In this document: one piece after another, positions 21,858-28,012 of the stretch | How the letters are laid out: every line of letters begins with the position of its first letter | Position numbering within the stretch: position 1 is the stretch's first letter | NCBI GenBank assembly: GCA_020353235.1 | Contig: CP070693.1 | Coordinates: forward strand, 347,153-410,221 | Direction of reading: 5' to 3' | DNA: 63,069 nt | Origin: Dehalococcoidia bacterium | GTDB taxonomy: Bacteria; Chloroflexota; Dehalococcoidia; Dehalococcoidales; JAUYDJ01 | The notes under the pieces: generated by a model | What the model was told of the DNA's origin: nothing | Seen by the model: only the letters and a program-made list of their open reading frames with translations | Database searches by the model: none | Translations under genes and position numbers: made by a program

Positions 21858-22049
21858 ATGCTGAAGAAGTATTTGTGGCTGATGGGTATCTCTGCCGGGG
21901 CTTTTGTGGTCAGTGTCCTCGCCCACAACCTGATAAGCGGCTGGTTCGGGATAGAAGAGCCTGTCTTTTTCGTCATCGCCGTTTTTATCTGCCCGGCTGC
22001 CTTTCTCGTGGGGGCAGTGGGCAGCATCATTGCCCTCATCAAACGGTAA
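21858..22049 (+). CDS. Small membrane protein, 63 residues
   Basis: A 63-residue protein with two hydrophobic helices (about residues 5-25 and 36-60), starting at an ATG behind AAAGGAGGAACTTTGCC, a strong site. It lies directly after BioY and its end overlaps the 3' end of the opposite-strand HtpX gene by 11 bases. I do not recognise it; it may belong to the membrane quality-control or biotin context, but nothing shows this. Confidence 0.75.
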   Translation: MLKKYLWLMGISAGAFVVSVLAHNLISGWFGIEEPVFFVIAVFICPAAFLVGAVGSIIALIKR

Positions 22050-23004
22050 GCGTGGACAGGTGCTTTATCCTCTTGAGCATATTGGGGTGGGTGGTGAAAA
22101 GCTCCATCAGCTTATGGGAACTGCCCAGCTTGACCTGCTTCTGGCGTAGCGCCTGAAGCTCGCTATAATTGATGGTGCCGCTCATATCCTGGTCAATCTG
22201 GGACAATTCCCTGATTTCATACCACGCCCGGGAGGGGTCGTTGATGAAGAAAGCCTTGACCCCCTCCACCCGTCTCAGTTCTTCCTTGTTTTTAACACGG
22301 GCGTTCCCGTAGACCAGCTTGTAGAGCGCCGTGGCTAGGTCATGGGGCATATTGCCCAGGCGGACACTGCCCATATCAGCGTAGTACTCCCGTATCCGCG
22401 AGCCGTAGAGCACCAACAGATTGGTAATGAAATAGAGGATAAAGGCACCCAGCCCAATCAGGGCGGCATAGCCACCCCCCCCACGGCGGCCCCCCCGGTC
22501 CCCACCCCCCATCATAAAGAAGGCAAGCCAGTAAAGCCACAGTGGGACTGCCGAAAGCAGGGTGATGATAGGCCTAACGCGGTGCTTGATGTGCGCCATT
22601 TCGTGCCCCAGAACTGCCTTGAGCTCCTCCCGGCTGAGCAGCCTTAAGATGCCGCGGGTAACACAGACGCGACCATCCCGTTGGGTCCGCCCGAAGGCAA
22701 AGGCGTTGGGTATGGAGAGCTGGGAGACGCCCACCTTGGGCTTGGGCAGGTGGGATGCCTCAGCCAGCTCCGCCACCATCCGGTGTAGCTCCGGCTCCTC
22801 TTTCTCCGAGACCCACTTTATCCGCATTGTCCAGCCCACTATCGCCGGGCCAATCAGGTACTGAAGGCCGATAAAACCAAAAGCGAGCACAACGTAGAAC
22901 ATGGCATTGCCCGCCCCCATATAGGTACCTAGACCAGTGATGACACCGTAGAGAATGGCAAACATAAGCGCCACCAAAAGATACATCCTGGTTTGAAGCC
23001 ACAT
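22039..23004 (-). CDS. htpX: HtpX membrane-bound zinc metalloprotease
   Basis: A 321-residue M48-family protease. The zinc-binding HEMAHIKHR is near residue 130, and two N-terminal membrane helices precede it, with another pair after it. A GGGDRGGRRGGGG insert separates helices, and the third zinc ligand is in REYYADMGSV. HtpX degrades damaged membrane proteins on the cytoplasmic side. The ATG has AAGGAGGGG upstream. Confidence 0.93.
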   Translation of the reverse strand: MWLQTRMYLLVALMFAILYGVITGLGTYMGAGNAMFYVVLAFGFIGLQYLIGPAIVGWTMRIKWVSEKEEPELHRMVAELAEASHLPKPKVGVSQLSIPNAFAFGRTQRDGRVCVTRGILRLLSREELKAVLGHEMAHIKHRVRPIITLLSAVPLWLYWLAFFMMGGGDRGGRRGGGGYAALIGLGAFILYFITNLLVLYGSRIREYYADMGSVRLGNMPHDLATALYKLVYGNARVKNKEELRRVEGVKAFFINDPSRAWYEIRELSQIDQDMSGTINYSELQALRQKQVKLGSSHKLMELFTTHPNMLKRIKHLSTLTV

Positions 23005-24133: not shown

Positions 24134-24916
24134 ATGAAGATACTGGTAACCAATGATGACGGCATATCCGCCCGGGGGCTCTGGGTGCTGGCCAAGGCGC
24201 TGAGCCAGGTGGGCAAGGTAATCGTGGTCGCCCCGGATAAAGAGCAGAGCGGTATCGGCACTGCGGTCAGCCTGCACCAGCCGATAAAAATGCACCGCGT
24301 CCCGCCGGTGGTGCCGGAAGTAGAGGCCTACGCCATCGCCGGTACCCCCGCCGATAGCGTTATCCTGGCTTTAACCAGACTGGCTGACGACCGGCTCGAC
24401 CTGGTCGTTTCCGGAATAAACCATGGCCCCAATGTCGGTGAGAATGTACTCATCTCGGGAACGGTAGGTGCCGCCCTGCAGGGCTATCTCTACGGTTTCC
24501 CGGCTATCGCCATCTCGGTAGACTCCCTGGACAACCCCTATCTGGATACTGCCGCGGAACTGGCCGCTTTGCTCGCCCGAAGGGTTGAGTCCAAATCACT
24601 GCCCGCCCATTTTTTCTTAAACGTCAACCTGCCCAATGTAACCCCCGATCGGATAAAGGGCATTGAGATTACCCGGTTAGCCAACGTCAGCCACACCGAT
24701 TTGGTGAAAGAGGAAAATGAGAGCGGTGCCGGGTACTACCGGCTGATACGGCGCAAAATAGACAGGCCCAGCGAGCGAGGGACTGATGTATGGGCGATAG
24801 AGCAAAATATTATCTCAATTACCCCCCTCCACATCGGCCTGGCCGATAACTCCTCCCCCCACCTCCCCACCATCTTGGGTGCCGAACTAATGCGAGAGCT
24901 AATCAAAAAGGGATAG
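24134..24916 (+). CDS. surE: SurE 5'/3'-nucleotidase
   Basis: A 260-residue SurE-family phosphatase. The metal-binding NDDGIS is at residues 6-11, SGINHGPN near 94 contributes more ligands, and the nucleoside-contact segment TPADSV follows. It removes phosphate from nucleoside monophosphates and short oligonucleotides. It is 23 bases after the cysteine synthase gene, and both may be on one transcript that ends at the hairpin at 24966. Confidence 0.93.
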   Translation: MKILVTNDDGISARGLWVLAKALSQVGKVIVVAPDKEQSGIGTAVSLHQPIKMHRVPPVVPEVEAYAIAGTPADSVILALTRLADDRLDLVVSGINHGPNVGENVLISGTVGAALQGYLYGFPAIAISVDSLDNPYLDTAAELAALLARRVESKSLPAHFFLNVNLPNVTPDRIKGIEITRLANVSHTDLVKEENESGAGYYRLIRRKIDRPSERGTDVWAIEQNIISITPLHIGLADNSSPHLPTILGAELMRELIKKG

Positions 24917-24965
24917 TACTTGGCGTTGACAGCGCCATATTAGCCTGATATTATCTAATATTAGC

Positions 24966-24990
24966 CACCGACCATTTGGCGGTGAGTCTT
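24966..24990 (+). terminator. Probable terminator of the cysK-surE transcript
   Basis: CACCG and CGGTG (24966-24970 and 24980-24984) pair, with CC/GG inside and one bulged A, and are followed by AGTCTTTTAA. It lies 50 bases after surE and is the first of two hairpins before the pantothenate operon. Confidence 0.5.
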
Positions 24991-25091
24991 TTAAAAATTT
25001 TTAAATAGCCGCTTGGATCTGGTACGACCGAGACGGTAGAAGATTTCTTAAACCTTCTCTGGAGTATCAGAGAAGGTTTTTTATTGGCCAA
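24991..25091 (+). promoter_or_regulatory. Structured leader of the pantothenate operon, possible pan-type riboregulator
   Basis: The 100 bases before the DUF2520 gene hold a short hairpin in GGTACGACCGAGACGGTA (CCG/CGG with unpaired CGA on one side), then AGAAG, which can pair with CTTCT of the terminator's 5' arm, then a full terminator. This would let two states compete. A structured 'pan' RNA motif is known upstream of pantothenate genes in several phyla including Chloroflexota, and this could be one, but I cannot confirm the match. Confidence 0.4.
25051..25083 (+). terminator. Rho-independent terminator just before the pantothenate operon
   Basis: Ten-base stem AACCTTCTCT/AGAGAAGGTT (25051-25060 and 25069-25078), eight-base loop, followed by TTTTTTATT. 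It ends nine bases before the ATG of the first gene. The GAGAAGG of its 3' arm is also the best ribosome-binding sequence of that gene, so folding it would both end the transcript and hide the site. Confidence 0.85.
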
Positions 25092-25970
25092 ATGCTCAAA
25101 CTAGGCTTTATCGGTGCCGGAACGGTGGGTACTGCCCTCGCCACCAAGCTCAGTGGCCGAGGCTACCCGGTAGTTTGTGTCTCCAGCCGCAGCCAGAGCT
25201 CAGCCCAGAAGCTAGCCCGGATGGTTCGTGGCTGCAATGCCCTGGAAAGCAGCCAGGCGGTAGCCGACAACGCCGAACTGGTCTTTATCACCACCCCCGA
25301 TGGCGTTATCAGTCAGGTAGCCGCCGAAGTAAATTGGCACCCCAAGCAGAGCGTGGTTCACTGCAGCGGTGCCCTGGCCACCGATATTCTGGAGCCAGCC
25401 AAGAAATTAGGGGCTCAGGTGGGTGCTTTTCACCCCCTGCAGACCTTCGCCGGGGTAAAACAGGCCATGGAAAACATGCCCGGCTCCACTTTTGCCATTG
25501 AGGCGGAGAAGCCCCTGATTGACACCCTCAGGGAGATGGCCGGCGCCCTTGACGGCTACTGGATAGAGCTGGAGGCGGAAGACCGGGTAATCTACCATGC
25601 TGCCGCTGTTATTGCCTGCAACTACCTGGTCACCCTGGTCAAGCTGGCCACCGACCTGTGGCAGACCTTCGGCGTGCCCAGCCACAAGGCGACCCGCTCC
25701 CTGCTGCCCCTGCTAAACGGGACGGTAAACAACATTGACACCATCGGCATCCCCCAGTGCCTCACCGGACCCATCGCCCGCGGTGACACCGGCACCATCA
25801 AGAAGCACCTGGAAGCGCTGCAGAAGAAAGCCCCCGACCTGCTCTCCACCTACCGCGAGCTCGGGCTGAAGACCATCCCGGTGGCGCTGGCCAAGGGCAA
25901 AATCGACCCGAAGCAGGTGAAGGAATTAAAAAAGGTACTGACACAGAAACTACCCGGAGAAGCCAAATGA
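25092..25970 (+). CDS. Rossmann/DUF2520 oxidoreductase, candidate ketopantoate reductase (PanG-like)
   Basis: A 292-residue protein with a Rossmann fold at the very start ([14 protein letters not shown], residues 3-16) and a C-terminal DUF2520-type helical domain. It leads an operon with panD, panB and panC, with four-base overlap to panD. That operon has genes for every pantothenate step except ketopantoate reductase (PanE), which this gene could supply: DUF2520/COG5495 proteins have been linked to the alternative reductase PanG. The NADP-binding fold and position support that; the reaction itself is inferred. Confidence 0.7.
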
Positions 25971-26326
25971 GAGTAATGCTGAAAAGCAAAATCCACCGCG
26001 CCCGCGTTACCGGCGCCAATATTGACTATGAAGGCAGCATCACCGTTGACCGCCAGCTGATGGCGGCCGCCGATATTCTCCCCTTCGAGCAGGTGGAGGT
26101 GCTCAACATCAACAACGGCGCCCGCATCGCCACCTACGCCATTGAGGGCAAAAAGGGCGAAATCTGCCTAAACGGCGCTGCCGCCCGGTCGGGTACCATT
26201 GGCGATATCGTTCTCATCCTGTCCTACATCCATGTTGACGACAGGGCGGCGCAGAAAATCACCCCCCGAATAGTCTATGTTGATAAGAAAAATGCCCTCA
26301 CCGCCGTCAAAGAGGGCTTGAAGTAA
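25967..26326 (+). CDS. panD: Aspartate 1-decarboxylase
   Basis: A 119-residue pyruvoyl-dependent decarboxylase. The self-cleavage site is Gly-Ser in YEGSITVD (about residues 25-31), which makes the pyruvoyl group, and the [25 protein letters not shown] and GDIVLILSY segments are standard. It makes beta-alanine from aspartate for the pantothenate pathway. Its start overlaps the preceding stop by four bases, and a second ATG three codons in may be the usual one. Confidence 0.95.
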
Positions 26327-26348: not shown

Positions 26349-27182
26349 ATGCGCGTTACGGTAAACCAGATAAGGGAAATGAAAGCCAAGGGAGAGAAAA
26401 TCTCCTGCCTCACCGCCTATGACTATGTTACCGCCAAGATAGTCGATGAGGCGGGTATACCTTTAATCCTGGTCGGCGACAGCCTGGGCATGGTGGTGCT
26501 GGGCTATGAATCAACCATCCCGGTCACCATTGGGGAGATGCTGCACCACACCAAGGCAGTGACCCGGGGTGCCAAGCAGGCGATGGTCATCGGCGATATG
26601 CCCTTTATGACCTATCACCTGAGCGTGGAGCAGGCACTGAGCAACGCCACCCGCTTTATCCAAGAGGCGGGGGCGCAGGCAGTGAAGCTGGAGGGAGGTG
26701 TCACCGTCGCCGAGAAGATAAAGCGGCTGGTAGAGTGCGGCATTCCGGTGATGGGCCACATCGGGCTCACCCCCCAGTCCGTCCACCAGTTCGGCGGCTA
26801 CAAGGTGCAGGGCAGAACTCCGGAGGCAGCCACCCGCCTGCTGGAGGACGCCAAAGCGGTGGATGAAGCCGGCGCCTTCAGCGTGGTTCTGGAAACGGTG
26901 CCGGCACCGCTGGCAGCGCTGATTACGGAAAAAATATCCATCCCGACCATCGGCATTGGAGCCGGCATCGGCTGCGATGGTCAGGTTCAGGTCATCAACG
27001 ATATTCTGGGCTCGTACACCGATTTTGTGCCCAAGCACGCCAAGCAGTACGTCAAGCTGACCGACATTGTCCGCCAGGCAGTTGACCAGTTCCACAGCGA
27101 GGTAATCGCCGGCACCTTCCCCACCGAGAAGCAGAGCTTCGCTATGGACGAAAGCATACTGGTGGAACTGAAGGCGAAGTGA
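26349..27182 (+). CDS. panB: 3-methyl-2-oxobutanoate hydroxymethyltransferase
   Basis: A 277-residue TIM-barrel enzyme. Motifs include CLTAYDYVTAKIVDEAGI, VGDSLGMVVLGYE (metal ligand Asp), MVIGDMPFMTYH and PVMGHIGLTPQ. It adds a hydroxymethyl group from methylene-tetrahydrofolate to ketoisovalerate, giving ketopantoate. GGAGG precedes the ATG; the stop overlaps the panC GTG start by four bases. Confidence 0.95.
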   Translation: MRVTVNQIREMKAKGEKISCLTAYDYVTAKIVDEAGIPLILVGDSLGMVVLGYESTIPVTIGEMLHHTKAVTRGAKQAMVIGDMPFMTYHLSVEQALSNATRFIQEAGAQAVKLEGGVTVAEKIKRLVECGIPVMGHIGLTPQSVHQFGGYKVQGRTPEAATRLLEDAKAVDEAGAFSVVLETVPAPLAALITEKISIPTIGIGAGIGCDGQVQVINDILGSYTDFVPKHAKQYVKLTDIVRQAVDQFHSEVIAGTFPTEKQSFAMDESILVELKAK

Positions 27183-28012
27183 AGGTTGTTACCACCATCG
27201 CCGATATGCAGGAAGCAAGGCAGCGGCTTACCGCGCCGGTAGGGCTGGTGCCGACGATGGGCTACCTCCACGAGGGGCACCTTTCACTGGTAAGTCAGGC
27301 GAGAGCCGAGAACCCATCGCTGGTGGTCACCATCTTCGTCAACCCCACCCAGTTCGGCCCCCGTGAGGACTTCAAAGCCTACCCCCGCGATACCGAACAC
27401 GACCTGGCGCTCCTGGAGAAAGAGAAGACCGACATCGTCTTCATCCCCCCCGCCAAGGAGATGTACCCACCCGGTTTTGACAGCTGGGTGGAGATAGCCG
27501 GGGTTACCGAACGCTTGGAGGGAGCCTGCCGCCCCGGTCACTTCCGCGGGGTGACCACCGTCTGCGCCAAGCTGTTCAATATCATCCAGCCCGATATCGC
27601 CTACTTCGGGCAGAAGGACGCCCAGCAGGCAATTGTCATCAAAAAGATGGTGGCTGACCTCAATATGAATCTGAAAGTAGTCACCCTGCCCACCGTCCGC
27701 GAGCCTGACGGGCTGGCGATGAGCAGCCGCAACACCTATTTAAACCCCGAAGAGCGCAAAGCAGCTTTAGTCCTCTATCAAGCGCTCACTCTAGCGCAGA
27801 AGCTGTGGGCAGCAGGCGATACCGACGCCGACAAGATACGCCGCGAGATGCTTGCCCTTATCAAAAGAGAGCCGCGGGCTAAAATTGACTATGTCAGCCT
27901 CGCTGACCCAGAGACTCTGGAAGAACTGGGCAGGGTAAAAACCCCCGCCCTCGCCTCCCTCGCCGTCAAAATCGGCACCACCCGCCTCATAGACAACGTG
28001 GTGCTGGAGTAA
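27179..28012 (+). CDS. panC: Pantothenate synthetase
   Basis: A 277-residue enzyme joining pantoate and beta-alanine with ATP. It has the nucleotidyltransferase signature PTMGYLHEGHLSL (HIGH-like) near residue 22, FVNPTQFGPREDF, FGQKDAQQA and SSRNTYL. It is the last gene of the panG-like, panD, panB, panC operon. The start is a GTG overlapping the panB stop. The tRNA cluster follows after 42 bases. Confidence 0.95.
   Translation: MKVVTTIADMQEARQRLTAPVGLVPTMGYLHEGHLSLVSQARAENPSLVVTIFVNPTQFGPREDFKAYPRDTEHDLALLEKEKTDIVFIPPAKEMYPPGFDSWVEIAGVTERLEGACRPGHFRGVTTVCAKLFNIIQPDIAYFGQKDAQQAIVIKKMVADLNMNLKVVTLPTVREPDGLAMSSRNTYLNPEERKAALVLYQALTLAQKLWAAGDTDADKIRREMLALIKREPRAKIDYVSLADPETLEELGRVKTPALASLAVKIGTTRLIDNVVLE

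Follow-up and report, generated by a model that had tools for sequence, protein, structure and literature searches.

The pan RNA leader of a Dehalococcoidia pantothenate operon as a probable transcription attenuator

In the 63,069-nucleotide stretch of DNA from a Dehalococcoidia bacterium analysed here (hereafter, the window), the pantothenate operon is preceded by a leader that ends in a terminator, and the locus raises the question of what decides whether the polymerase passes this terminator. We consider the following alternatives: a conserved RNA in the leader could compete with the terminator and respond either to a protein or to a metabolite; the terminator could be an ordinary one of the upstream gene or a constitutive attenuator; or the competitor could be a short AGAAG element upstream of the terminator, as had been proposed in the original prediction.

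Features of the leader and of the operon

The features of the locus, in window coordinates, are the following.

24926..24954, plus strand: sigma-70-type promoter, TTGACA-17-TATTAT, with TG before the -10 element (11/12 consensus matches)
24963..25040, plus strand: pan RNA motif RF01749, two tandem hairpins (cmscan, 40.9 bits; gathering score, 36.2)
24963..24988, plus strand: pan hairpin 1, bulged As at 24971 and 24985 (Rfam alignment and sequence)
25009..25036, plus strand: pan hairpin 2, bulged As at 25017 and 25033; putative anti-antiterminator (Rfam alignment)
25028..25037, plus strand: 3' strand of hairpin 2, CCGAGACGGU, with 25052-25062 as its alternative partner in the putative antiterminator (sequence comparison)
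25038..25042, plus strand: the AGAAG of the original prediction, able to pair with 25054-25058, not conserved in same-class leaders
25050..25082, plus strand: intrinsic terminator with a perfect 12-bp stem (25050-25061/25068-25079) and a T-run (25077-25082)
25092..25970, plus strand: DUF2520/Rossmann reductase (Pfam PF10728, 2.8e-36; PF10727, 3.1e-15)
25967..26326, plus strand: panD, aspartate 1-decarboxylase (TIGR00223, above cut-off)
26349..27182, plus strand: panB, ketopantoate hydroxymethyltransferase (TIGR00222, above cut-off)
27179..28012, plus strand: panC, pantoate-beta-alanine ligase (TIGR00018, above cut-off)

The match to RF01749 spans the whole Rfam covariance model (positions 1-92 of 92), has an E-value of 5.2e-6 in the whole-genome search, and is the sole one in the 1.12-Mb genome by both the covariance model and a pattern search. 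Each hairpin contains the two bulged As that are highly conserved in the pan motif, those of hairpin 2 being invariant in 78 relatives, and the DUF2520-panD-panB-panC operon lies immediately downstream, as is characteristic of the motif. Judged by its sequence, the leader is a member of the known pan family, and the expectation of a pan motif at this position is confirmed by the Rfam search. Two other identities were dropped as sub-threshold: the PyrR binding site RF00515 (24.2 bits against a gathering score of 54) and the L10 leader RF00557 (20.0 bits against 44).

The leader folds with z = -4.75, none of 200 shuffles being equally good. In the minimum-energy fold of the full-length leader, the linker GUCUUUUA (24985-24992) pairs with UAGAAGAU (25037-25045), enclosing hairpin 2; in this model the linker would be a third possible partner for AGAAG.

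Transcription is predicted, from the position of the promoter, to start at approximately the first base of the pan motif; the upstream gene surE has the same direction and ends at 24916. The interval originally delineated, starting at 24985, contained real features but omitted the promoter and the first pan hairpin. The terminator had been described correctly, with nine bases between the end of its T-run and the first-gene ATG at 25092, its perfect stem being of 12 bp rather than of ten. The first gene probably encodes ketopantoate reductase, given its operon context.

The ribosome-binding sequence had been placed in the 3' arm of the terminator, and this holds weakly: the Shine-Dalgarno-like AGAAGG (25071-25076) is there, with none better after it, but its distance to the ATG, 15 nt, is long. 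In a minority of loci, 11 of 58 with a measurable start within 16 nt, this arm is near enough to serve as the ribosome-binding site, e.g. in L017 and L029. An in-frame ATT at 25083 (25083-25091), 6 nt past AGAAGG and thus better spaced, could serve as the start instead; the ATG at 25092 is favoured, since the N-terminus with this ATG is conserved in relatives. Elsewhere in the window, the minus strand carries a zinc-metalloprotease-like ORF (HEMAH) at 22039-23004; close to its C terminus is an EF-hand-like segment, DQDMSGTINYSEL.

Distribution and architecture of pan loci

The RF01749 search yielded matches in 37 of 61 genomes when applied to 60 relatives and the genome itself, in 75 of the 294 genomes of the window's class (panB being present in 245), in 89 of 151 genomes of the class of a Bacillus, in 4 of 154 clostridial-class genomes, and in 27 of the 247 genomes from the phylum of a deltaproteobacterial MAG. 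The comparative sample comprises 194 pan loci from three phyla; its counts include related, non-independent genomes and hence are inflated by kinship. A pattern scan of genome contigs for the hairpin-2 consensus gave mostly chance matches, with a pan-model match in two of the seven genomes checked.

By one fixed criterion, an intrinsic terminator follows 184 of the 194 pan motifs in the three phyla (window's class, 84/93; Bacilli, 69/70; deltaproteobacterial phylum, 27/27; clostridial, 4/4). A promoter with at least 9 of 12 consensus matches was found in 85 of the 93 same-class loci, compared with 5% in shuffled sequence, and these promoters mostly end 4-9 nt upstream of the pan motif. Thus, the order promoter, pan motif, terminator, operon is a conserved architecture.

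The genes following the motif vary in several lineages. The first gene is Peptidase_S58 (DmpA/BapA family) in 18 pan loci of the class (e.g. L228, L229, L230, L231, L232, L236, L237), followed by the DUF2520 reductase and then by the other pan genes, with panD in most. Beta-aminopeptidases of the DmpA/BapA family release beta-alanine, a pantothenate precursor, and the Peptidase_S58 protein may feed the pathway in this way. In two clostridial genomes (L152 and L153, also L222 and L223), the motif precedes a PanT-like ECF substrate-binding component, whose best solved relatives are 4rfs_S and 6zg3_C, which we take to be pantothenate ECF transporters. The presence of a transporter component among the targets fits repression by pantothenate or CoA sufficiency. 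Three loci of the deltaproteobacterial phylum (L224, L225, L226) have an extra gene between the pan motif and panB, encoding a ThiS/MoaD-like protein in two loci and, judged by resemblance only, an aldehyde ferredoxin oxidoreductase in one. Genome G110 contains a second well-formed pan motif (L113/L227), located before a molybdopterin oxidoreductase-like gene rather than pan genes.

Pairing between hairpin 2 and the terminator

Positions 25028-25036, CCGAGACGG, in the 3' strand of hairpin 2 are complementary to the 5' arm of the terminator, CCUUCUCUGG. The putative antiterminator pairs 5'-CCGAGA(C)GGU-3' (25028-25037) with 5'-ACC(U)UCUC(U)GG-3' (25052-25062), and the invariant bulged A of hairpin 2 (25033) finds in it a partner, the invariant U at 25056. 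Taken by itself, the leader in the window shows modest complementarity: shuffling gives p 0.026, and of 143 generic hairpins in the window, which is the background used, 6 pair equally well.

For 84 same-class loci, the mean pairing energy between the pan strand and the terminator arm of the same leader is -11.9 kcal/mol, compared with -7.5 for shuffled arms; when combined with arms from Bacilli, the same strands pair more weakly (-8.1 kcal/mol). When 78 leaders are aligned, 95-100% of them have standard pairs at the core positions, GAGA/UCUC and GG/CC, and the helix as a whole is 87% paired, versus 43-56% with the partner slid.

The terminator stem covaries at 9 of 10 pairs in the 78 relatives, hence the terminator sequence is free to change, and yet its 5' arm is fixed opposite the pan strand. 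The arm bases facing an A of the pan strand are T in 78/78 and 75/78 leaders; those facing G are C with T as the main alternative, so that G-U pairs are retained; and opposite the unpaired C the arm varies (T in 55, C in 23). Two-sided changes were observed at two of eight antiterminator pairs within the class, no more than in shuffles, as the pan strand is nearly invariant there. For the same reason covariation within the class cannot prove the antiterminator, and the case for it is a comparative one, built on how unevenly the terminator arm is constrained and on differences between clades.

These differences are as follows. Bacilli have GACAGAGGG or GACGGAGGA as the strand and CCUUCUGUC as the arm, the mean pairing energy being -11.1 kcal/mol against -8.4 for shuffles (n = 64). 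In the deltaproteobacterial phylum ACGGAAGG pairs with CCUUCUGG (-11.3 against -6.5 kcal/mol; n = 27). The core alignment of these two clades is 84% paired and has four two-sided changes, exceeding shuffles on the latter count, while the register partly shifts. Both partners are altered in some leaders, namely CGAAAGG/CCUUUCG (L162), GACCAGAA/UUCUGGUC (L163) and GACAGGC/GCCUGU (L152); strand and terminator arm are altered together in both clostridial loci with the ECF component. In some Paenibacillus-like Bacilli the pairing comprises 5-6 bp only, hence its strength varies. The pairing also accounts for the 3'-terminal tail GAaGG, conserved but unpaired in the Rfam consensus.

Thus, an intrinsic terminator is accompanied by a conserved, mutually exclusive antiterminator, as in attenuators, and the two, together with the promoter, make cis-regulation of the operon probable. 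The original suggestion of attenuation is well supported by this comparison. We consider it likely (a probability of roughly 0.75) that the pan leader attenuates transcription of the pantothenate operon, with hairpin 2 as the anti-antiterminator. The motif, the promoter, the terminator and the conserved exclusive pairing are shown by comparing sequences; the switching, its direction in the cell and the identity of the effector are what we infer from them.

The proposed sequence of events is as follows. The RNA would begin at the first base of the pan motif. If hairpin 2 is held folded by an effector signalling enough pantothenate or CoA, its 3' strand would be locked away, the terminator would form, and the operon would be OFF. 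Vice versa, if hairpin 2 is not stabilised, the 3' strand CCGAGACGGU would invade the emerging 5' arm of the terminator, ACCUUCUCUGG, forming the antiterminator, and the polymerase would continue into the operon. Minimum-energy folding of the growing transcript of the window predicts hairpin 2 alone up to approximately 25060; at 3' ends of 25066-25074, hairpin 2 and the antiterminator have near-equal energies, with an antiterminator probability of 0.59-0.97; from 25076, the terminator is predicted together with hairpin 2. By this folding model the leader is a kinetic switch poised between two outcomes, and a more stable hairpin 2 tips it towards termination.

A different design is seen in one family of the class (L233, L234, L235), which has no terminator and in which a TTG within hairpin 2, in frame in all three genomes, appears to be the start codon of the reductase (CGC-TTG-GAT-CGG at L233:188, L234, reverse complement, :167, and L235:152). 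AGGAG is situated five bases upstream of this TTG, and no other in-frame start was found ahead of the Rossmann motif. As the TTG is inside hairpin 2, folding of the latter should block initiation. We predict that the two designs, with the terminator and with the TTG start, share the same sign: stabilised hairpin 2 is OFF.

Candidate effectors, alternatives and known systems

The effector may be a protein that recognises the tandem bulged-A hairpins under conditions of ample pantothenate or CoA and keeps hairpin 2 folded, similarly to PyrR in pyr attenuation; it could be an RNA-binding regulator, probably a dimer, or a pathway enzyme with a moonlighting role. The conserved letters are in the stems and the bulged As, while the loops and the linker vary, and this pattern of conservation favours a protein; such an effector is also compatible with an attenuator based on hairpin 2. 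On the other hand, tandem simple hairpins can form riboswitches too, as in the case of guanidine-II. Dimeric protein binding has been proposed from the same pattern of conservation (Weinberg et al. 2010, PMC2864571). Overall, we regard a protein effector as plausible, at slightly below even odds.

Alternatively, a metabolite could be bound directly, the leader being an OFF riboswitch with tandem sites for pantothenate, pantoate, 4'-phosphopantetheine or CoA. This would agree with the set of targets, which are pathway genes and, in two genomes, the ECF substrate-binding component, and with an expression platform typical of riboswitches; at the same time, there is very little conserved unpaired sequence for a pocket, and CoA riboswitches are listed as missing in a 2022 review (PMC9971707). 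We thus treat direct binding as a tentative option. The fuller version, in which a metabolite from the pantothenate/CoA pathway is the direct ligand of the pan RNA and the latter is the missing riboswitch class for this cofactor branch, with an aptamer pair read by termination in most lineages and, in one, by masking of a start codon that the aptamer contains, seems to us rather unlikely.

It is improbable that there is no switch at all, with the terminator either being an ordinary one that belongs to surE or attenuating constitutively, and the complementarity arising incidentally from sequence similarity. The position of surE, with the same direction and its end at 24916, and the weak complementarity at the single locus would be consistent with this, but the promoter is situated between surE and the terminator, 184 of the 194 pan motifs, drawn from three phyla, are followed by a terminator, and it is precisely opposite the pan strand that the terminator arm is constrained.

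The AGAAG element (25038-25042) can indeed pair with CUUCU in the terminator 5' arm (25054-25058), with a predicted probability of 0.70-0.71 at transcript ends 25058-25060, and Bacilli use the adjacent GAAGG tail comparably, but a functional competitor in the species of the window it is very unlikely to be, as an RGAAG tail is present in just 4 of 84 same-class leaders, the pairing probability is already down to 0 with the terminator 3' arm still incomplete, and the pairing does not compete with hairpin 2 and hence would sense nothing. In our judgement, a five-base complementarity on its own is at about chance level in such a purine/pyrimidine-rich leader. Hence the pairing originally proposed is feasible but does not stand as a conserved switch; by the comparison of leaders, the conserved competitor of the terminator is the 3' strand of hairpin 2, not AGAAG.

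The proposed attenuator resembles several known systems. As in guanidine-II (mini-ykkC) RNAs, tandem small hairpins would act as one regulatory unit, but the conserved letters of mini-ykkC are in the loops, whereas those of pan are in the stems and bulges. In PyrR-dependent pyr attenuation (RF00515), the binding hairpin is likewise an anti-antiterminator whose 3' strand competes with the 5' arm of the terminator; the two are not homologous (24.2 bits versus 54), the pan hairpins having bulged As instead of the PyrR loop and serving another pathway. With the published pan motif the leader shares the tandem stems, the bulged As and the location upstream of pantothenate biosynthesis genes; the main text of Weinberg et al. 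2010 (PMC2864571) covers just the stems, their arrangement in tandem and the genomic context; the antiterminator/terminator platform, like the OFF logic, comes from the present comparison, although the 2010 supplement may already draw terminators. Transcription of pan leaders is documented in Bacillus species (PMC4634765, PMC4342826), and a listing exists for Paenibacillus (PMC5670726), in both cases with no mechanism given. The laboratory strain B. subtilis 168 has a pan motif of its own, and a 2024 study of CoA metabolism in B. subtilis (PMC11487621) does not mention a riboswitch or RNA motif. A search of freely readable papers, the main text of 2010 included, retrieved no ligand or expression platform for the motif.

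The pan motif, described in 2010, is still an orphan, and CoA is among the cofactors without a known riboswitch (PMC9971707). The platform proposed here for three phyla would provide the sign of regulation, stabilised hairpin 2 being OFF; it names the bases to mutate, and would turn the search for the effector into a termination read-out at approximately 25082.
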